Of a stretch of DNA of 64,000 nucleotides, positions 20,524-35,506 are shown piece after piece. Made by a program: the position numbers and the translations under genes. The DNA lies in the NCBI RefSeq assembly GCF_012932215.1, contig NZ_CP048788.1, positions 3,100,001 through 3,164,000 on the forward strand. The letters run 5' to 3'. The notes under the pieces were generated by a model that did no database searches, was not told the DNA's origin, and was given only the letters and a program-made list of their open reading frames with translations. This stretch comes from Roseobacter ponti. GTDB lineage: Bacteria > Pseudomonadota > Alphaproteobacteria > Rhodobacterales > Rhodobacteraceae. The first letter of the stretch is position 1. Each line of letters starts with the position of its first letter.

Positions 20524-20931
20524 TTACCTTACCACATGTACGGCACAGGCCGCATGTCTTACGACATGTGATGCCGTTGATCCGAGAAAATAATCTTTCA
20601 CGCCCGGACGGTGAGAGGCGATTATGATGAGATCATTGCCGTACTGCCCGGCATAATCAAGAATTGTGCGCCCGGAATGCCCTTCCAGAATTACGCCCTC
20701 TGCGCCCGGCAGATGCTGTGCGAGGCGGTCCATTTCCTGATGGAGCGTCACACGTAATTCCTTTTGCAGATTCTCAGTAACAAAGGATTTCGCATAGCCG
20801 GGCAGACGTTCGATCACATGAAGAAAAGTGATTTTTGAGCCTGGCGAAGCGAGCAGGCCGGCCAGTTTGACAGGCGCGCTTTTATCATGGTCGTTGTCGA
20901 ATAAGACCGGCACGAGGATGTTGTTGTACAT
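20524..20931 (-). CDS. Universal stress protein (UspA family)
   Basis: A 135-aa single-domain Usp. It begins MYNNILVPVLFD, and the nucleotide-binding segment near the C-terminus is IIIASHRPGVKDYFLGSTASHVVRHA, seen as the G-x2-G-x9-G-S/T pattern with changes (SHRPG and FLGSTAS). GGAAGG precedes the ATG at 20931; an upstream in-frame codon adds nine residues without support. An FNR-like box lies 53 bp upstream, consistent with induction at low oxygen. Confidence 0.85.
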   Translation of the reverse strand: MYNNILVPVLFDNDHDKSAPVKLAGLLASPGSKITFLHVIERLPGYAKSFVTENLQKELRVTLHQEMDRLAQHLPGAEGVILEGHSGRTILDYAGQYGNDLIIIASHRPGVKDYFLGSTASHVVRHAACAVHVVR

Positions 20932-20984
20932 GGTATTTTCCTTCCCGATGATCGCCATTTATGGCGCGAAATTTCGCCCGGGCA

Positions 20985-20998
20985 TTGTTTCAGATCAA
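20985..20998. promoter_or_regulatory. FNR/FixK-like box upstream of uspA
   Basis: TTGTT-TCAG-ATCAA, one mismatch from TTGAT-N4-ATCAA, 53 bp before the uspA start codon. The position fits a class II activation site. Confidence 0.6.
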
Positions 20999-23031: not shown

Positions 23032-24249
23032 TATGCCCGGAGACATTGCACAGATCACTGCGGCCTACACGGAAATGGCGGGTAAAGGATTGCGGACATC
23101 GCGCTCGCCCGCCGCCATACAGGCACACCGCAGATCGTTGAAGAAGAGCTTACGTTTCTGGGGCTGGTCGGCCTGATTGATCCGCCGCGCGCCGAAGTGC
23201 GGGGCGCGATTGCCTCGGCAGGATCCGCCGGCATCCGCGTGATTATGATCACCGGAGACAGCCCTGTCACCGCCAGGGCCATCGCAGAACAGCTCTCACT
23301 TACCGTGACACAGGCGCTGACCGGGCCGGAGCCTGACGCGCTTGATGAGACGGCTCTGCTGGAAACGCTTTCCGGTGACGTGCTCTTTGCCCGCACGCGG
23401 CCCGAGCAGAAAATGCGGATCGTCGCAGCGCTGCAGTCGCAGGACCAGATCGTTGCCATGACCGGTGACGGGGTCAATGACGCCCCTGCCCTCAAGCAGG
23501 CGGATATCGGCGTATCGATGGGCATCCGGGGCACGGATGTGGCGCGCGATGCCTCTGATCTGGTGCTGCTGGATGACAACTTTGCCACCATCGTCCGCGC
23601 CATCGGTGAAGGTCGTCGCCAGTTCGCCAACGTCCGTAAGTTTGTGCGCTACCTGCTGTCATCAAATGCAGGCGAGGTGATCGCTCTCATGGTCAATATC
23701 GCAATCGGTGGCCCGCTGGTTTTTCTCGCCACTCAGATCCTCTGGATGAACCTTGTCACCGATGGGGTGACAGCCGTGGCGCTGGGTCTGGAAAAGGCTG
23801 AACCGGATCATATGCAGCACCCGCCGCGCGACAAACACGATGCCATACTGGGGTACCGCGGCATTGCCACGATAATCGTGCTGGGCCTCTATACCGGGTT
23901 GTCGAGCCTGTGGATTTTCTTTCACCTGATGGATCAGGGTGTGGATCTGGCACGCACCACCGCCTTTACCGCCATGGTGGTTTTTGAAAAAGTGAGCGTC
24001 TTTGCCTTTCGGTCACTGCGCCTGCCCGGATCGCGCATCGGCTGGTTCAGCAACCCGTTTTTGCTCTGTGCTCTTGCCCTGACACTGGGCGCGCAGGTGC
24101 TGGCGATCTACTGGCCGCCGCTGCAGACCCTGTTGCATACCGTACCGGTCGGGCTTGCGGAATGGCAGTGGATTGCCCTTTTCGCCCCGCCGGTTCTGAT
24201 CCTGCCCGAGGCTTTCAAACTGCTGCGCGTGCGCGGTCAGCGCACATAA
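23032..24249 (+). pseudogene. Remnant of a P2-type cation-transporting ATPase
   Basis: Only the C-terminal third remains: ITGDSPVTARA, TGDGVNDAPALKQADIG (the P-domain hinge) and the six C-terminal membrane segments, including LWMNLVTDGV. The membrane helices 1-4, actuator domain and DKTGT phosphorylation site are absent; PHA synthase lies directly upstream. The first recognisable residues (GDIAQITAAYTEMAGKGLR, from about 23041) are in a different frame from ALARRHTGTPQIVEEELTFLG, so one base is missing near 23096. An open frame from a GTG at 23197 could make 350 residues but no working pump. The 3' end overlaps the convergent antiporter gene by 13 bp. Confidence 0.82.
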
Positions 24250-25274
24250 TAATAGGCGATCAGGCTGCCACCAAAGGTCAGCAGCACAAGGATCGAATCG
24301 AGGCCAACACTGCCAAGCCTGGGCTTGCGCCGCACGATCAGACCGGAGAGAAAAATCGCCGTCACCGCGATCCCGAAAGCCAGCGACAGTGTCACCGTGC
24401 GCGAGACATCCTGCAGGATCGGGCCTGAGCGAAACAGGATATCAGCGGGAAATACCAGCACGAGCATAATCAGGTTGCTGCCGAAAATATTCGAAATCGC
24501 CATCGTAAAGGCGCCGATGCGCACGGCCGTAATGCTGGTCGTCAGTTCCGGAAGAGAGGTCGCACCTGCAAGCAGGGTCGCTCCGATGAACCCCGTGCCA
24601 AGCCCCGACTGCTCTGCGATCCGCCCGGCAAAGACTACCAGCAGCAGCCCGAAGATCAGGATCCCGAAACAGGCAACAACCGCCTGTACGATGAGAAGCC
24701 GGTTGCCCGTCCCGGCCAGACCGGAAGGTGCAGGAAAGGGAAGCGGTTCCGGGTCCGGCAGATCGACCGGCACCCAGTCGCTGGCGTCATCGTATTTACG
24801 AAGCAACCAGATCGACCCGCCATAAATCAGCGCGATCAGCACACTGCCCGGGCCGATCTGAAAAAAAGATATAGTTTCGCCAAGGTTGATCACGATCAGT
24901 GTCACCGAGAGCATCATCACAAGAAGCGTGGCTTCGAGGGCATGATTGGCTTTGCGCGGGTACCCGGTAATCGCGCGTTTTGTCCAGAAATCCGACGTCG
25001 CGAGAATTGCGGTTTGCAGGGCGATCCCGCCAAAAAGGTTATTGAGCACCAGATCGCGGGACTGCTGCACAGCGGCGGTGAGCGTCGTGGCAACCTCCGG
25101 AAGGGATGTGGCAAGTGACAGCACCAGCAGCCCCATGAGTGATCTGGCAAGCCGGTACCGGTCGGCCAGCGCATCGGCCAGCCAGGCCAGCCGCGCTCCT
25201 GCCACCCAGACCACGCCCGCACTGAGCGCAAAGCACAGGATGCTCAGCAGAAAGGAGGTGGCGGGAACCTGCAT
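24237..25274 (-). CDS. CaCA-family sodium/calcium exchanger-like membrane protein
   Basis: A 345-aa membrane protein with about ten hydrophobic segments in two inverted halves. Each half carries the alpha-repeat of the family: SLATSLPEVATTLTAA with LNNLFGGIALQ in the first, and GATSLPELTTSITAVR with SNIFGSNLIMLV in the second. The Glu of each repeat is the expected cation ligand. It probably exchanges Ca2+ or another cation for Na+ or H+. It converges on the broken P-type ATPase. Confidence 0.85.
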   Translation of the reverse strand: MQVPATSFLLSILCFALSAGVVWVAGARLAWLADALADRYRLARSLMGLLVLSLATSLPEVATTLTAAVQQSRDLVLNNLFGGIALQTAILATSDFWTKRAITGYPRKANHALEATLLVMMLSVTLIVINLGETISFFQIGPGSVLIALIYGGSIWLLRKYDDASDWVPVDLPDPEPLPFPAPSGLAGTGNRLLIVQAVVACFGILIFGLLLVVFAGRIAEQSGLGTGFIGATLLAGATSLPELTTSITAVRIGAFTMAISNIFGSNLIMLVLVFPADILFRSGPILQDVSRTVTLSLAFGIAVTAIFLSGLIVRRKPRLGSVGLDSILVLLTFGGSLIAYYYVR

Positions 25275-25356
25275 GGCGGTGTTTTATCAGAGGCCCCGCG
25301 AGGGTAATTTGACATGCCTCAATGCGGATCGGATGCGCGGGCTTCAGACTGCTCAG

Positions 25357-26089: not shown

Positions 26090-26103
26090 TTGAGCAGGAT
26101 CAA
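26090..26103. promoter_or_regulatory. FNR/FixK-like box upstream of the site-2 protease gene
   Basis: TTGAG-CAGG-ATCAA, one mismatch from the consensus, 48 bp before ATG 26152. Confidence 0.55.
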
Positions 26104-26151: not shown

Positions 26152-27303
26152 ATGTTTTCAGATTCCATCAGACTGTTTTCGCTCGATGGGTTCGAGATCA
26201 GGCTGGATAAAAGCTGGCTGCTTATTGCGGCACTGATCACATGGAGCCTCGCACAGCAGTACTTTCCACAGACCTTCCCGGATCAGACACCGGGCACATA
26301 TCTGGTCATGGGTCTCTTTGCCTGTCTTTGCTTTTTCGGATCACTGCTGCTTCACGAACTGGCCCATTCTGTTGTGGCCCGGCGCTTTGGCATCGGTGTG
26401 AAGAGCATAACTCTGTTTCTCTTTGGCGGTGTTGCGGAACTGGCCTCCGAACCCGACCGGCCACGGGTTGAGTTCTGGATCGCGGTCGCGGGCCCGGCCA
26501 TGAGCCTTTTCCTGGCATTCGGTTTCTGGATCTTCGGAGCCTTTACAGAGCTTGCGCTGAGGCAAAGCCCGATACCGGTTGTGCTTCACTATCTTGCACT
26601 GATCAATTTTGTTCTGGCCCTTTTCAACCTCGTGCCGGCCTTTCCGCTGGACGGCGGGCGGATCCTGCGCGCAGCCCTCTGGCACCGCACCGGGGATGTC
26701 CTCAGAGCAACCGAAACAGCCGCGCGCTCAGGCACATTCTTTGCTTTTCTGCTGATGACCTTTGGCGTTTTATCGCTCTTTCAGGGGGCAGTTTTTGCCG
26801 GTTTCTGGTACATCCTGATTGGCGGTTTCGTACTGATGGCTGCCCGGTCGAGCTATCAGACGCAACTGGCAGAAGCGGTTTTTGACCACAAGACAGTTGC
26901 CATGCTGATGACGCCCGATCCGGTGACCACGCGCCCGGATGTGACACTTGATGAGTTCGTAAACCACATAATGATCGACCGCCGCGCGAGCTTTGTGCCG
27001 GTCGTCGAAAACGGCGTTCTGCTCGGGCACATGGACCACCGCGTGCTCGAGGGGATTGATCGCGAAAACTGGCCCGGCATGCATGTCGACGACATCTTTG
27101 CCGGGCTCACCGCCGAGGCCTCGGTCGCGCCTTACATGCCGGTCAAAGACCTGATGGCGCTGATCGCACAGACCGGGCGGCGCAAGTTCATGGTGGTAGA
27201 AGATCACCGGTTGTGCGGCGTAATCACACTGTCGGATGTTATCCGTTATCTGAGGGTAAGCGATCTGCTCATGCACCGGCAGAACAGGACGACGAAAACA
27301 TGA
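26152..27303 (+). CDS. Site-2-protease-like M50 membrane metalloprotease with CBS domains
   Basis: A 383-aa membrane protein. The zinc site is HELAHS (about residues 66-71), and the third ligand is in NLVPAFPLDGGRILRA near residue 165. About six hydrophobic segments span residues 15-240. The C-terminal 120 residues are a pair of CBS domains (MLMTPDPVTTRPDVTLDEF; KFMVVEDHRLCGVITLSDV), which usually bind adenine nucleotides. It is the rhomboid-unrelated S2P group with C-terminal CBS. An FNR-like box is upstream, and the stop overlaps the next gene's start (ATGA). Confidence 0.87.
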   Translation: MFSDSIRLFSLDGFEIRLDKSWLLIAALITWSLAQQYFPQTFPDQTPGTYLVMGLFACLCFFGSLLLHELAHSVVARRFGIGVKSITLFLFGGVAELASEPDRPRVEFWIAVAGPAMSLFLAFGFWIFGAFTELALRQSPIPVVLHYLALINFVLALFNLVPAFPLDGGRILRAALWHRTGDVLRATETAARSGTFFAFLLMTFGVLSLFQGAVFAGFWYILIGGFVLMAARSSYQTQLAEAVFDHKTVAMLMTPDPVTTRPDVTLDEFVNHIMIDRRASFVPVVENGVLLGHMDHRVLEGIDRENWPGMHVDDIFAGLTAEASVAPYMPVKDLMALIAQTGRRKFMVVEDHRLCGVITLSDVIRYLRVSDLLMHRQNRTTKT

Positions 27304-28069: not shown

Positions 28070-29620
28070 ATGCACAGCGATCCACATGACAGCGCAATTC
28101 TCGACACTCTGCTGATGGCCGCGCCAGACGCGATTGTGATCTGTGATCAGACCGGAAAAATCCTGCGGGCCAGTGCGGCGGCACACAGTACATTCGGCTA
28201 TGAGCCCGGAGAACTGACGGGCCGCAACGTGCGGATCCTGATGCCGGAGACGCTGGGCACCCTGCACGACGGCTATATCGCGCGGCATATCGCAACAGGC
28301 GAGGTGCGCATTCTGGATGCAATGCGCGATGTTGAAGGGCGTCGCAAAGACGGATCATCCGTGCCGCTGCAGATTACCCTTGGTGGTATTGACGCGGGCG
28401 GCGCGCAGCATTTCACAGCCGTCATGCACGATCTGACCCGGCGCAGGGCCACGCAGAATGCCCTGTCGCGATCACAGCGCATGGATGCCATCGGACAGAT
28501 GACCGGCGGGATCGCACATGATTTCAACAATATCCTGACCCTGCTGATCGGTAACCTGGAGCTGCTGGAACTGCGGGGTCTGACCGACCGCCAGGCAGGA
28601 CCGGTCGCCGATGCGCTGCATGCAGCACAGCTCGGCGCGGATCTGACGCAGCGGCTGATGGCGTTCGCCCGCAGGAGCGATCTCAGGCCGGTGATGACCG
28701 ATCTGCGCGCGCCTTGCGGCGAGACTCTGCGCATCCTGAAAGGCAGCCTTGGCGAAAACTACACAGTTCGCACGGATTTTGCCGAAGATGCGGATATGGT
28801 GATGATTGACCCGGTACAGTTTCAGTCGGCGCTCACAAACCTGGTCTTCAACGCGCGCGACGCGATGGGGGCGTCGGGCGATCTGCTGATCTCTCTGAGC
28901 AATGTCACGATCGATGACACCTATGTCGCCCAGGAAACCGGCATCCGCTATGGCCGCTATGTCCGCCTGTCGGTCGGCGACAACGGCGCGGGCATGGACG
29001 AAGAAGCACAAAAACGTGCCTTTGAGCCGTTTTTCACCACCAAATCAGATGCAGGCGGCACCGGGCTCGGGCTGGCCACAGTCTATGGCTTTGTCAGGCA
29101 GTCGGGCGGACATGTGACGCTTTACAGTGAACCGGGTCTGGGATCGAACTTCGGCCTCTATTTTCCGGCAGTGCACAGTGATGCTGAAACCGTGGAAAAA
29201 ACCGGCGCGCGCGCGACAGACACCCCTGTCAGGATCGCCGACAGCCAGATGGTGCTCGTCGTCGAAGATAACCCCAGGGTGCGCAAACTCTCCGTGGAGC
29301 GGATCCGAGATCTGGGATTCTCCGTTGAGGAGGCAGCGAGCGGTGACAGTGCATATCTGATGCTGAAAGAGGGGCTGCCGGTCGATATTGTATTCTCTGA
29401 TCTGGTGATGCCGGGCCGTTTGAGCGGGTACGACCTTGCTGCAAAAATCGCAGATGAGTTTCCGCAGATCAGGGTCCTGCTGACCTCCGGGTATGCCAGC
29501 GACGTTGTGACCAGCCGGATGGCTCAGGGCCAGGTTTTTGACATCCTGCACAAACCCTACCGACAGGCGGAACTGGCACGCAGACTTCAGGTGCTGCTGG
29601 ATCCGCCGGCGGGCGGCTGA
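28070..29620 (+). CDS. Hybrid FixL-like PAS histidine kinase with C-terminal receiver
   Basis: A 516-aa soluble sensor kinase. Residues 8-120 are a PAS domain with the FixL signature: His66 in TLHDGYIARH and Arg86 in DAMRDVEG are 20 residues apart, the same spacing as the heme His and O2-contact Arg of FixL. Residues 135-375 are the kinase: His150 in GGIAHDFNN, then DNGAGMD and GGTGLGLATVYG. Residues 395-516 are a receiver with phosphoacceptor Asp444 (FSDLVMPG). No membrane segment is seen. The 3' end overlaps the convergent response-regulator gene by 34 bp. Arrangement and neighbours resemble hFixL of Rhizobium. Heme binding is inferred. ATG 28070 was chosen at the family start; the ribosome site is weak. 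Confidence 0.85.
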   Translation: MHSDPHDSAILDTLLMAAPDAIVICDQTGKILRASAAAHSTFGYEPGELTGRNVRILMPETLGTLHDGYIARHIATGEVRILDAMRDVEGRRKDGSSVPLQITLGGIDAGGAQHFTAVMHDLTRRRATQNALSRSQRMDAIGQMTGGIAHDFNNILTLLIGNLELLELRGLTDRQAGPVADALHAAQLGADLTQRLMAFARRSDLRPVMTDLRAPCGETLRILKGSLGENYTVRTDFAEDADMVMIDPVQFQSALTNLVFNARDAMGASGDLLISLSNVTIDDTYVAQETGIRYGRYVRLSVGDNGAGMDEEAQKRAFEPFFTTKSDAGGTGLGLATVYGFVRQSGGHVTLYSEPGLGSNFGLYFPAVHSDAETVEKTGARATDTPVRIADSQMVLVVEDNPRVRKLSVERIRDLGFSVEEAASGDSAYLMLKEGLPVDIVFSDLVMPGRLSGYDLAAKIADEFPQIRVLLTSGYASDVVTSRMAQGQVFDILHKPYRQAELARRLQVLLDPPAGG

Positions 29621-30366
29621 AGCGTTTCGACATCACAGGCAAAGCTGTACCCGATCCCGCGGACCGTCCTGATCAGTCTGGGCTTTGAAGGATCGCGCTC
29701 AATCTTTTTGCGCAGCCGCGCCACCTGATTGTCTATGGTCCGGTCCAGCGGGCTCCATTCAAGCCCCCCGGTCAGATCCATCAGCTGATCGCGCGACAAC
29801 ACCCGTCCCGGCCGTTCGAGAAAAACACTCAGCAGCCGGAAGTCTCCGCTGGTCAGACCGCAGTCTTCGCCCCTGCGGTCTGTCAGTTCAAACCGGTCCG
29901 TTTTCGCAACCATCCCGTCAAACGTAAAATATGTGCCACTCGCAGGATCATTATCTCCGGTGCCCTCCGACGGGTCGGGCTGTTTAGCAGCTGCGGTGAC
30001 GGCCGAACGGCGCAGAACGCTCCTGATCCGCGCGATGACTTCGCGGACATGAAACGGCTTGGTGATGTAGTCATCAGCGCCGACCTCCAGGCCGACCACG
30101 CGGTCAATCACGTCATCCCGGCCACTGACCACGATGATCGGCATCTGAGCGGTCTGCCGGATTTCGCGCGCCAGATCTATGCCATTGTCCGCACCCAGGT
30201 GGACGTCAAGCGTGATCAGGCTCACGGTCTCTGTGTCAATGATCCGGCGTACGTCATCCGCGTTTTCGGCTTCCAGCACAGCAAATCCGTCATCCTCCAG
30301 CAGATTGCGCAGAAGCGATCGGATTTTAGGGTCGTCATCGACCACTAGGATTGTCTGATGTGTCAC
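29587..30366 (-). CDS. OmpR/PhoB-type response regulator (FxkR-like)
   Basis: A 259-aa regulator. The receiver has ILVVDDDPKIR, phosphoacceptor Asp54 (LITLDVHLG) and YITKPFH. The C-terminal winged helix includes LTSGDFRLLSVFLERPGR and ends in RLIRTVRGIGYSF. I placed the start at GTG 30366, where the receiver begins; the frame is open 40 codons further but without similarity. It lies between the hybrid FixL-like kinase and the FixK-like gene, the position and family of FxkR in Rhizobium, which replaces FixJ downstream of hFixL. That equivalence is inferred. A 47-residue Pro/Asp/Gly-rich linker separates the two domains. Confidence 0.82.
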   Translation of the reverse strand: MTHQTILVVDDDPKIRSLLRNLLEDDGFAVLEAENADDVRRIIDTETVSLITLDVHLGADNGIDLAREIRQTAQMPIIVVSGRDDVIDRVVGLEVGADDYITKPFHVREVIARIRSVLRRSAVTAAAKQPDPSEGTGDNDPASGTYFTFDGMVAKTDRFELTDRRGEDCGLTSGDFRLLSVFLERPGRVLSRDQLMDLTGGLEWSPLDRTIDNQVARLRKKIERDPSKPRLIRTVRGIGYSFACDVETLQPPAGGSSST

Positions 30367-30453
30367 AAGCGGAACCCGGGCGGCGTCAAAGAATATGCCC
30401 CAGAAAGCTGAGACAACAAAATCAAAGCCCTGTTCCTGCCACCGGAACCGGGC

Positions 30454-30469
30454 GATACATTTTGATACA
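30454..30469 (+). promoter_or_regulatory. Direct repeat GATACA-N4-GATACA upstream of the FixK-like gene
   Basis: Two identical GATACA hexamers separated by TTTT (11-bp phasing between starts is 10), 78 bp before the FixK-like start. OmpR/PhoB regulators bind such direct repeats, and the Rhizobium FxkR K-box, as I recall it, is a similar hexamer-N4-hexamer. It is a candidate target of the neighbouring response regulator. Confidence 0.55.
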
Positions 30470-30547
30470 AAAATCTGCCCCACCACAATACGCCGGATTA
30501 CATCGGGCAGCCAGGGTCATTGTGAGATGATACGGGGGATCGCTCAG

Positions 30548-31219
30548 ATGTATGTCACTATACCGACCGAACACTTTGAAACACTGCCGCCGGCGGCGCT
30601 GCCTGCACGCAGACCCGGAACACCGGAAACGACCCGGAACGCCGGATCATACCTCTTTTTTGAAGGGGATGAGGTGAAATGGCTCTATCAGGTGGTCTCG
30701 GGCGTCCTGCGCCTGACGCGGCTGCTCGAGGACGGACGACGCCAGGTCATCGCTTTCGGGTATCCGGGCGATATCGTCGGATTTCCCTCCGGTGGCCTGC
30801 ATCACACGGACTGCGATGTGCTTGTGGATGCCCGCCTGCGCGTTTTCCGCCGCTCGGCGCTTGAAAGCTGCGTCGGTAACCCGGAACTGCACCGGCAACT
30901 CCTTCAGGCGGCACTGGGTGAAATCAGCGCGATGCAGGATCATTTTATGATGCTCGGGCGCAAGTCAGCCGCCGAAAAGCTCGCGTCTTTCCTGCACGTT
31001 CTCTTTGAGCGCGTCGGGGAGGAGACAGACGGCAAAAGGCAGATTGTTCTGCCCATGAGCCGGTCTGATATTGCCGACTTCCTGGGCCTGACCACCGAAA
31101 CGGTGAGCCGTACACTCACTCAGATGCGCAAGAGCAGGATCATTGACGTGGAAGACATCTACAGGGTCGTGGTTCTGCGTCCGGACGCGTTGCTGAAGCT
31201 CTCTGTGGGTAACCGCTGA
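30548..31219 (+). CDS. FixK-like Crp/Fnr transcription regulator
   Basis: A 223-aa Crp/Fnr protein. The cyclic-nucleotide-like beta barrel (residues 30-120) contains FEGDEVKWLYQVVSG and FGYPGDIVGFPS; a dimer helix follows; the C-terminal helix-turn-helix is SRSDIADFLGLTTETVSRTL. The recognition helix reads E-TVSR, the FNR/FixK type expected to read TTGAT-N4-ATCAA. The N-terminal Cys cluster of FNR is absent, so it should not carry a 4Fe-4S cluster, which favours FixK. ATG 30548 has GGGGGA at good spacing; an upstream ATG at 30527 lacks it. Confidence 0.83.
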   Translation: MYVTIPTEHFETLPPAALPARRPGTPETTRNAGSYLFFEGDEVKWLYQVVSGVLRLTRLLEDGRRQVIAFGYPGDIVGFPSGGLHHTDCDVLVDARLRVFRRSALESCVGNPELHRQLLQAALGEISAMQDHFMMLGRKSAAEKLASFLHVLFERVGEETDGKRQIVLPMSRSDIADFLGLTTETVSRTLTQMRKSRIIDVEDIYRVVVLRPDALLKLSVGNR

Positions 31220-31300: not shown

Positions 31301-32482
31301 TCAGTCTTCAACCGGCTTCATATCAACATCGAGCGCCTGACCCGGATTACCGAGCAGAAACAGAAAGAGCGCCTTTGTCATGGCACCAATTCCCAGCAGC
31401 ACAAGCGTATAATTGGCGACCCAGCCCACGAAGGGAATGAAATTCAGCAGTGCGATCAGACAGATGGCCGCAGCAAAGACTGCAAGCCTGAGCGCGTTTC
31501 CGGGCGCGTCCTGCCCCCCCAGTGCGCGCCACAGATGCATGGCAACGCTGTAAGCTCCCAGCGCATATCCCAGCGTCCAGGCCAGTACGATGCACAGCAC
31601 TGCGACCGGCACGAAGGGCAGGCCGATGATTGTCAGTGCCGTAATCGGCACTATCCCGAAAAGCACCGAAAGTCCCAGAACACCCAGCAGCATGGCCTGC
31701 CCGGGCGCCGATGCCACATGCCGACGCAGATTTTCCAGCCGGCGCGGCATAAAGCCCAGCATCAGCGCACCCAGAACAACGAAAAACAGCAGTGAGATTA
31801 CAAAACTCAGAAAGGCCGACGCAAAGGTTGGCAGCACAGGCATATCTTCGCGCATGTCTTTCAGATCGTCCCAGCCTCGGACGGCCGTGAAACGCTCGAA
31901 TACCACCCGTCCGGCGGGGGCCACGCGTTCCGGCACGGAGATTTTGTCGCCGGAACGATATGTCAGAGTACCGCCGACGACGGCATCGGGGCCAAACGAG
32001 ATCGACCCGGCGAGCACCTGCATGTCGCCTTCCACAGCGGCATTCAGGATGACATCGCGACCGGCAACGGTCAGCGCCCCGGCCACGGGGCCTTCGATTG
32101 TGACACTGTTGCCCGCAAGCCGGACGTTGCCCGCTGTGGCCGCCCCCCGCTCTGTGCGCACTGAAAATCCGGCAGCGGTGAGGTCGCTGGCGACAGCACC
32201 CCTTACCACGACGGTGGCGCCGAGAGCGTAGAGATCCTCGGCCACATCGGCGTTTACGGAGACGTCGAACCCGTGAACATGCAGATCCCCCTGGGCTGCA
32301 CCACGCGCAGATACTGAACGGGCGGACATAAACGTATCACCGCCTGTGGAAATCGTTTCGCTCAGCACCTTGCCTGAAAAAAACGTATCACCACCGTTTT
32401 CGACTAGTTCAGCCGTCGCAGTTGCCGGCAGAGCGAATACGAAAAGTGCAAGGAAAGTCAGAATTATCCCGGGCATTTGCAT
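31301..32482 (-). CDS. Bactofilin-like polymer-forming protein with membrane domain
   Basis: A 393-aa two-part protein. After a signal sequence (GIILTFLALFVFALPATATA), residues 25-190 form repeated short beta strands typical of bactofilin-like right-handed helices (GNVRLAGNSVTIEGPV, GDMQVLAGSISFG). Residues 225-370 hold four or five hydrophobic segments. This combination is known from uncharacterised 'polymer-forming' membrane proteins; the function is unknown. AAGGGA precedes ATG 32482. A perfect FNR/FixK box lies 64 bp upstream. Confidence 0.7.
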   Translation of the reverse strand: MQMPGIILTFLALFVFALPATATAELVENGGDTFFSGKVLSETISTGGDTFMSARSVSARGAAQGDLHVHGFDVSVNADVAEDLYALGATVVVRGAVASDLTAAGFSVRTERGAATAGNVRLAGNSVTIEGPVAGALTVAGRDVILNAAVEGDMQVLAGSISFGPDAVVGGTLTYRSGDKISVPERVAPAGRVVFERFTAVRGWDDLKDMREDMPVLPTFASAFLSFVISLLFFVVLGALMLGFMPRRLENLRRHVASAPGQAMLLGVLGLSVLFGIVPITALTIIGLPFVPVAVLCIVLAWTLGYALGAYSVAMHLWRALGGQDAPGNALRLAVFAAAICLIALLNFIPFVGWVANYTLVLLGIGAMTKALFLFLLGNPGQALDVDMKPVED

Positions 32483-34042: not shown

Positions 34043-34056
34043 TTGATATACGTCAA
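34043..34056. promoter_or_regulatory. FNR/FixK-like box upstream of the SpoIIAA-like gene
   Basis: TTGAT-ATAC-GTCAA, one mismatch from the consensus, 57 bp before ATG 34114. Confidence 0.6.
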
Positions 34057-34667: not shown

Positions 34668-34943
34668 TCAGTCCGCACCCCGCGCCGCTTCAGGGTGCTC
34701 GGCAATAAATCCACGCAACACGGCAAAGAGTTCATGCGCGTGGACTGCGTTGCCATCGTGCAGGGCGGCGCGGATATCCTCGCAGATCATCTCATTCACC
34801 CGTTGCGGGCCATGGTGCACCTTCATCATATAATTGCCCATCAGTGTCGCGTCATAGGCTGTGACGTGTTCATGCTCTGCAAGTGCGTCGATTTCCGCGC
34901 GGGTCAGCGCTGACATGTCTTCGATATCTTCCAGAGTTATCAT
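34668..34943 (-). CDS. Conserved-looking 91-aa cytoplasmic protein of unknown function
   Basis: No family is recognised. The protein is acidic and helical (ALTRAEIDALAEHEHVTAYD; GNAVHAHELFAVLRGF), without Cys or membrane segment, and His-rich (7 His in 91 residues). It shares a perfect FNR/FixK box, 59 bp upstream, with the divergent cytochrome c gene. This placement is the best evidence that it is expressed. A ligand- or metal-binding role would be a guess. Confidence 0.6.
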   Translation of the reverse strand: MITLEDIEDMSALTRAEIDALAEHEHVTAYDATLMGNYMMKVHHGPQRVNEMICEDIRAALHDGNAVHAHELFAVLRGFIAEHPEAARGAD

Positions 34944-35077: not shown

Positions 35078-35506
35078 ATGCGGCCGATCACCGTCACAGC
35101 GTTGTTTGCCTTGCCCGTTCTGCCAGTCCTCATTGCCTGCAGCGACCCGGCAGGAGAGATGCAGATGATGCCAACCAGAGCGGACGGAGCCGCGTTTTTT
35201 GCGCAGAACTGCGTATCCTGCCATGGTGCGGACGGGCGCGGCGCGGGCGTTGCAGGCCGGGAACTTTCCGCGAAACCCACTGATCTGACAACACTGAGCG
35301 CTCAGAACGGTGGCGAATTTCCGGCCGCGCGGACACTGAGCTATATCTATGGCGACACGCGCAACAGCCACCTCTCCCGCGTGATGCCGGAGTTCGGCGC
35401 CGACATGGCGGACGATCTTGTTCCGGTCGAAATCGACGGTGTCCTGACACCGACGCCGCGCGAACTGGCGGGCTTGCTGGCCTATCTGGAAAGCATTCAG
35501 AAATAA
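35078..35506 (+). CDS. Lipoprotein monoheme cytochrome c
   Basis: A 142-aa c-type cytochrome. The N-terminus is a lipoprotein signal ending in LIAC (Cys21), so it should be anchored in the periplasmic face of a membrane. The heme site is CVSCH in FAQNCVSCHGADGRG (residues 45-49), and the Met ligand is probably in RVMPEFG. It may pass electrons in low-oxygen respiration. The perfect FNR/FixK box 61 bp upstream supports this. Confidence 0.85.
   Translation: MRPITVTALFALPVLPVLIACSDPAGEMQMMPTRADGAAFFAQNCVSCHGADGRGAGVAGRELSAKPTDLTTLSAQNGGEFPAARTLSYIYGDTRNSHLSRVMPEFGADMADDLVPVEIDGVLTPTPRELAGLLAYLESIQK

Follow-up and report, generated by a model that had tools for sequence, protein, structure and literature searches.

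Do three adjacent genes of Roseobacter ponti, encoding a PAS-type histidine kinase, an OmpR-family response regulator and a Crp/Fnr protein, form a low-oxygen relay of the kind known from root-nodule bacteria? The genes lie in a 64,000-nucleotide stretch of contig NZ_CP048788.1 (assembly GCF_012932215.1, positions 3,100,001 to 3,164,000 of the forward strand); this whole stretch is referred to as the window, and positions are counted from its first nucleotide (nt). The hFixL-FxkR-FixK cascade has been described for Rhizobium johnstonii (leguminosarum) 3841 pRL9 and for R. etli (excerpts of PMC7888657 and PMC4999443), and a sequence-only reading of the window had proposed the same hybrid FixL, OmpR-type regulator and FixK here, in control of the surrounding genes. 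We report that the relatives of the PAS domain, the place of the regulator in the FxkR clade, a K-box-like operator and the recurrence of the arrangement support the proposed cascade. Judged from sequence, the locus is likely to be a member of an hFixL-FxkR-FixK-type low-oxygen relay in the Rhodobacterales, wired to an island of stress and ion-transport genes.

The three proteins

The three genes stand side by side as had been described (Table 1). Pfam assigns PAS, HisKA, HATPase and C-terminal receiver domains to the kinase (HisKA at 26.7 bits, slightly below the Pfam cut-off of 26.9) and the phospho-residues are present; the PAS, kinase core and receiver of the hybrid kinase in the hFixL-FxkR-FixK cascade were all found. 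Because the most hydrophobic 19-mer scores only 1.43 no membrane segment is evident, in agreement with the soluble kinase with fused receiver of the sequence-only reading. A phmmer search of the PDB with the PAS domain gave 15 sequences at E≤0.01, headed by FixL of R. meliloti (4.5e-26) and of B. japonicum (5.7e-22), followed by one multi-sensor kinase and then by YddU/DosP heme-PAS entries; the closest solved structures are thus those of heme FixL. In the alignment with FixL, a check that had been suggested earlier, the 20-residue spacing of His66 and Arg86 is confirmed, and both fall on the His and Arg of the two FixL proteins, which we take to be the heme ligand (H200) and the O2 contact (R220). 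Genome-wide, at E≤0.001, this PAS domain is matched solely by the window kinase. A LOV/flavin-type PAS was ruled out by eye, the PAS sequence having no NCRFLQ-type motif.

The regulator, with receiver and Trans_reg_C domains according to Pfam, is of the OmpR type as had been stated. Its start is most likely the GTG at 30366, and its gene and that of the kinase are convergent with 3' ends overlapping by 34 bp. The regulator tree proposed earlier was computed and groups the protein with FxkR, apart from other OmpR-type regulators. Specifically, in a 48-row tree it falls in an 18-row FxkR clade (support 98/96) whose members are 14 Rhodobacterales cassette regulators, R. johnstonii FxkR9 with its counterparts from R. 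etli and S. meliloti, and the Terrirubrum protein. Outside it are 23 further regulators of Rhodobacteraceae type and seven more Trans_reg_C proteins encoded by this genome. FxkR9 was identified via the coordinates in the accessible part of PMC7888657 and the sequence record; the R. etli and S. meliloti FxkR proteins are named here by similarity and position. A wider quick tree of 69 rows places 22 of the 23 rows of the FxkR group with one outsider, L137, in a 23-row fork (SH-aLRT 91), and all 23 within a 26-row group (SH-aLRT 95) that includes L109, L135 and L137, which do not carry the FxkR label; hence the clade is not strictly exclusive. This tree took in 42 of the 80 loci from a profile scan with the regulator alignment, which was run with two generic OmpR patterns; since the matches listed were mostly unrelated OmpR regulators, that scan is no census. 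In a separate search with the regulator, the best named plasmid-borne ones among the matches listed (up to 5000 records) are from Tropicibacter oceani (60%), Terrirubrum (53%), Sulfitobacter sp. DSM 110093 (54%) and R. etli p42f (46%).

The Crp gene is divergent from the regulator gene across a spacer of approximately 160 bp. Its open reading frame (ORF) extends upstream to 30395, and because this 5' part runs through the operator described below it is probably non-coding, with the start at 30527 or 30548. The protein carries the recognition helix LGLTTETVSR. Contrary to the earlier description as "Cys-less" it has two cysteines, Cys96 and Cys115, neither of them part of an N-terminal cluster, which rules out an FNR-type direct O2 sensor. 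An FNR recognition helix without the N-terminal cysteine cluster is the FixK-like combination; the cluster of FnrL/FnrN is absent. The closest solved protein is FixK2 (E 4.3e-35, vs 4.7e-25 for FNR; PDB). A 33-row tree unites 19 of the 20 cassette Crp proteins tested in one clade (97/100) and places fixK9a, fixK9b and the S. meliloti protein in a separate one (95/96), with deeper links to the cassette clade unsupported. The genome also encodes its own FnrL-type protein, which has the Cys cluster and adjoins ccoN, where there is a perfect FNR/FixK-type box.

The operator and its recurrence

The published K-box of FxkR is GTTACA-N4-GTTACA (PMC7888657 and PMC4999443, in excerpt). The spacer between the regulator and Crp genes holds GATACATTTTGATACA, i.e. 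GATACA-TTTT-GATACA, which differs from it twice, each time at half-site position 2, and which reads toward the Crp gene, 57 nt before the ATG at 30527 and 78 nt before that at 30548. The motif GWTACA-N4-GWTACA has one match in the window (0 in 100 dinucleotide shuffles) and this is its single occurrence in the 3.96-Mb genome. If three mismatches to strict GTTACA-N4-GTTACA are allowed, 10 matches are found in the window vs 14.7 expected, so loose matches are meaningless. The published motif was already known when the site was spotted by eye, and W was chosen after seeing it; therefore the relatives are the real test of the operator.

A regulator-profile search was made of 292 sampled Rhodobacterales genomes, of which 69 passed the E-value limit and 43 have FxkR-type regulators (at least 341 bits; next-best score 278). 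Four of these were already in our first set of loci and the other 39, chosen by the regulator profile alone, became the test set; its members are only partly independent of one another, as several have a genus in common and L234 and L236 are near copies. A divergent Crp gene adjoins the regulator in 39/39 test loci, across a 1.2-kb gap in L250, and an adjacent kinase is present in 37/39, seen to be convergent in 36 and cut by the locus end in one. L222 and L249, the two loci in which no kinase adjoins, have the FxkR-type regulator, the Crp gene and the box.

The spacers of the first set (n=16) match GWTACA-N4-GWTACA perfectly in eight cases, with one mismatch in four, two in three and four in one; among shuffled spacers, 0-0.5% of the trials get to one mismatch and 2-8% to two. 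Sites with two or more mismatches were not counted as boxes (L038, L043, L045 and L046 in the first set; L228, L232 and L239 in the test set). In the test set, where all boxes were taken in Crp-gene orientation, the spacer box is perfect in 23 loci and has one mismatch in 13, two in one and three in two, i.e. at most one in 36/39. Perfect boxes number 24 in 11,101 bp of padded spacers vs none in 741,322 bp of flanks, and the reversed motif is absent from both. A K-box also precedes fixK9a in R. johnstonii. A K-box upstream of a Crp/fixK gene, kept in relatives, goes beyond the checks that the sequence-only reading had proposed, and this predicted operator supports the cascade as what we regard as the decisive new evidence.

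The two sensor residues recur with the cassette. His is found in 13/14 and Arg in 13/14 first-set kinases, L044 being the exception, and in 34/36 and 35/36, respectively, of further cassette kinases, a count that omits the one cut by the locus end and the two loci without an adjacent kinase. In L044 (7989-9464) the heme His is Ala, in L220 it is Arg, and in L226 the region is missing; despite the His loss, cassette and box (at most one mismatch) are kept in these three, which represent natural sensor variants.

Class-wide, 9 of 385 genomes pass a stricter limit; three of them, including that of the window, belong to the window organism's family and the other six are spread over four more families. 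Four of these six have a divergent Crp gene in the stretch examined, with GTCACA-N4-GTCACA in three spacers (L255, L256 and L258) and GGTACA-N4-GTTACA in one. GTCACA is thus a third half-site form, of other alphaproteobacterial families.

Predicted targets around the cassette

Boxes of the FNR/FixK type were scored as TTGAT-N4-ATCAA. Perfect boxes number 10 in 192 kb of first-set cassette loci and 37 in 752 kb of the test set (24/39 loci) vs none in 422 kb of control loci of regulators of the same family (0/23 loci), and a half-site-swapped motif occurs three times in the test set and three times in the control loci. Genome-wide there are 13 perfect boxes, only two of them in the window. Boxes with up to two mismatches are weakly above chance in the whole window (29 vs 19.8; 3 of 100 shuffles reach as many), and the argument therefore rests on perfect and one-mismatch boxes and on relatives. 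Between 18 and 42 kb, limits set after the sites were seen, there are eight boxes with at most one mismatch, two of which are not clearly upstream of a gene (24886 falls within the Na/Ca exchanger gene and 21085 within an ORF without family).

Table 1. Cassette genes, operator and FNR/FixK-type boxes in the window.
Feature	Position	Strand	Basis or remark
hFixL-like soluble hybrid histidine kinase, 516 amino acids (aa)	28070..29620	+	Pfam, PDB FixL matches, alignments, residue check
Kinase PAS (His66, Arg86); phospho-acceptor His150 in HDFNN	PAS ~aa 11-127		
Kinase HATPase; C-terminal receiver (Asp444)	aa 247-367; aa 395-506		
FxkR-type OmpR-family response regulator, 259 aa, GTG start	29587..30366	-	Pfam, tree with FxkR, residue check
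Regulator acidic pair Asp10/Asp11, phospho-acceptor Asp54, Lys103			
K-box-like operator	30454..30469	+	motif scans; conserved in relatives
FixK-like Crp/Fnr regulator without FNR cysteine cluster	30527..31219	+	Pfam, PDB match, tree; alternative start 30548
Box TTGTTTCAGATCAA, one mismatch	20985..20998		26 nt before universal stress protein gene 20524-20958 (-)
Weak box TTGACATGCCTCAA, two mismatches	25309..25322		34 nt before Na/Ca exchanger gene 24237-25274 (-)
Box TTGAGCAGGATCAA, one mismatch	26090..26103		48 nt before M50-CBS gene
M50 metalloprotease with CBS domains, predicted target	26152..27303	+	Pfam; box upstream
Perfect box TTGATCGGAATCAA	32547..32560		before bactofilin-like gene 31301-32482 (-; predicted start)
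Box TTGATATACGTCAA, one mismatch	34043..34056		before SpoIIAA-like gene (predicted ATG ~34114)
Perfect box TTGATCAGTATCAA	35003..35016		61 nt before cytochrome c gene 35078-35506 (+)

Several of the boxes recur in front of orthologues. For the M50-CBS gene a box with at most one mismatch is upstream in 11/22, with 10 of 12 sites at 49-58 nt; for the Na/Ca exchanger gene such a box is 34-35 nt upstream in 6/9; for the bactofilin-like gene a box is upstream in 13/23, seven of them perfect; and ccoG has a box 58-65 nt upstream in 4/4. The box TTGATCAGTATCAA is also 59 nt before a divergent ORF, 34668-34943 (-). The bactofilin-like protein is membrane-anchored and has no Pfam match, its likeness to bactofilins being judged by eye, and is found beside many cassettes. 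Within the cassette itself the box is rare before the regulator (1/39) or the Crp gene (5/39), and of the 37 relatives with a kinase match 17 carry it ahead of the kinase gene, suggestive of a positive loop there; the window kinase has no FNR/FixK box upstream. The earlier claim that the cascade controls the surrounding genes is supported in part, by boxes that keep their spacing to the starts of several neighbouring genes and that one or other of the Crp/Fnr proteins would bind.

In six other loci (L037, L038, L237, L248, L250 and L253) cbb3 oxidase genes adjoin the cassette. No nifH was found above cut-off in the genome. Its second contig (~101 kb; L262 and L263) has bchL and bchX above curated cut-offs and is a probable photosynthesis plasmid of an aerobic phototroph.

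Proposed relay, alternatives and known systems

From these data we infer heme binding, sensing, phosphotransfer, regulon membership and the Crp protein that binds the boxes. By homology the PAS heme, ligated by His66 and with Arg86 contacting O2, would hold the kinase inactive in air. As O2 falls His150 would be phosphorylated and the phosphate passed to Asp54 of the regulator, while the kinase's own receiver (Asp444) may tune or drain the signal; the residues for these steps are present. The regulator would then bind the conserved tandem GATACA-N4-GATACA and turn on the divergent Crp gene, the product of which, lacking the usual cysteines for an FNR-type iron-sulfur cluster, would activate the neighbours via TTGAT-N4-ATCAA.

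Several observations weigh against such a relay. Whole-kinase matches to NCBIfam are all below cut-off, including the FixL model (166 bits vs 850), and the OmpR and FixK models likewise score below theirs. No grouping of the Crp protein with rhizobial FixKf was obtained, and because the cassette clade is apart from fixK9a/fixK9b with weak deeper links we call it FixK-like and not FixKf. Locus L043 has no box (four mismatches), and L228, L232 and L239 are at two to three mismatches, a level often reached by shuffled spacers. Four sister-clade regulators (L052, L054, L059 and L060) have GWTACA-N4-GWTACA upstream of their own gene, so this box is not private to FxkR; these OmpR regulators adjoin HAMP-type kinases and metal genes. 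A predicted box is upstream of PhaC in 0/5, of the Ca-ATPase in 0/17 and of VIT1 in 1/17. Heme is not universal in cassettes, given the three kinases without the His, and the loop preceding Arg86 in the window kinase is ILDAMR vs IIGxGR, the most altered among those aligned, so that its O2 affinity could differ. These last two points would fit the same wiring with another signal, i.e. a window PAS domain that has lost heme binding, or useful O2 binding, and responds to a different cue; with His66 and Arg86 kept, heme FixL as the best structural relatives and both residues highly conserved across cassettes, we find this clearly improbable.

It is less improbable, though still on the unlikely side, that the TTGAT-N4-ATCAA boxes of the island serve the genome's FnrL, with the cassette Crp protein acting on another or smaller set of targets. 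The FnrL-type protein beside ccoN, with its perfect box there, could bind the same boxes, it shares the ETVSR recognition helix with the Crp protein of the window, and the window holds a mere two of the perfect boxes of the genome; on the other side, perfect boxes cluster at cassettes in both sets of loci and are absent from the control loci. Chance neighbourhood of an ordinary OmpR regulator, a PAS kinase and a Crp gene without a shared circuit might be entertained because such genes are common (42 first-look regulator candidates in this genome). As the trio recurs in 37/39 loci that were chosen independently, with a box in the spacer common to regulator and Crp gene, and as perfect boxes are confined to the spacers of the test loci, we reject it as extremely improbable.

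The three-protein low-oxygen relay of root-nodule bacteria, to which the locus probably belongs, thus seems to reach further than nitrogen fixation does. According to the accessible part of a survey of 50 alphaproteobacterial genomes, FxkR orthologues are found only in R. etli, R. leguminosarum and S. meliloti, the cascade arose in an ancestor of the Rhizobiaceae, and Rhodobacterales have FnrN only (PMC4999443); FixK is described as generally restricted to Rhizobiales in an excerpt of PMC2908626. Relative to that survey as excerpted, an FxkR-type regulator with operator in Rhodobacterales is new, and a literature search of titles and abstract openings, covering few subscription journals, gave no report of one. 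The recurrence of regulator, operator and architecture in Rhodobacterales (43/292 by profile; 39 new loci examined) argues for a circuit that is wider and perhaps older. We lean slightly towards an old, mobile alphaproteobacterial low-oxygen switch independent of nitrogen fixation, with a near single-purpose regulator whose only perfect genomic site is the Crp promoter, a half-site that drifted by lineage (GTTACA in rhizobia, GTCACA in other families, GATACA/GTTACA in Rhodobacterales), and an output that is a stress/ion-transport island or a cbb3 oxidase depending on lineage. The many natural variants of operator and sensor, including kinases without the heme His, offer a test of relay evolution outside symbiosis.

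Compared with the hFixL-FxkR-FixK cascade of R. johnstonii and R. etli, the locus shares a hybrid PAS kinase, an OmpR-family regulator of the same clade, a tandem K-box between divergent fxkR and fixK, and a Crp/Fnr output with TTGAT-N4-ATCAA boxes alongside a coexisting FnrN/FnrL protein. It differs in that the kinase gene is convergent with that of the regulator, the half-site is GATACA for GTTACA, and stress and ion-transport genes are the neighbours in a genome without nifH above cut-off; moreover, the kinase has 516 aa and one PAS domain vs 641 aa for hFixL9, and the Crp lineage is separate from fixK9a/fixK9b of R. johnstonii. With FixLJ-FixK of Sinorhizobium and Bradyrhizobium it has in common a PAS kinase closest in the PDB to heme FixL and a Crp output nearest to FixK2, whereas its regulator is of the OmpR and not the FixJ type and its kinase is a hybrid. 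Finally, box type and recognition helix are those of FnrL/FnrN, in contrast to which the Crp protein lacks the N-terminal Cys cluster and exists beside a separate FnrL-type protein in the same genome.

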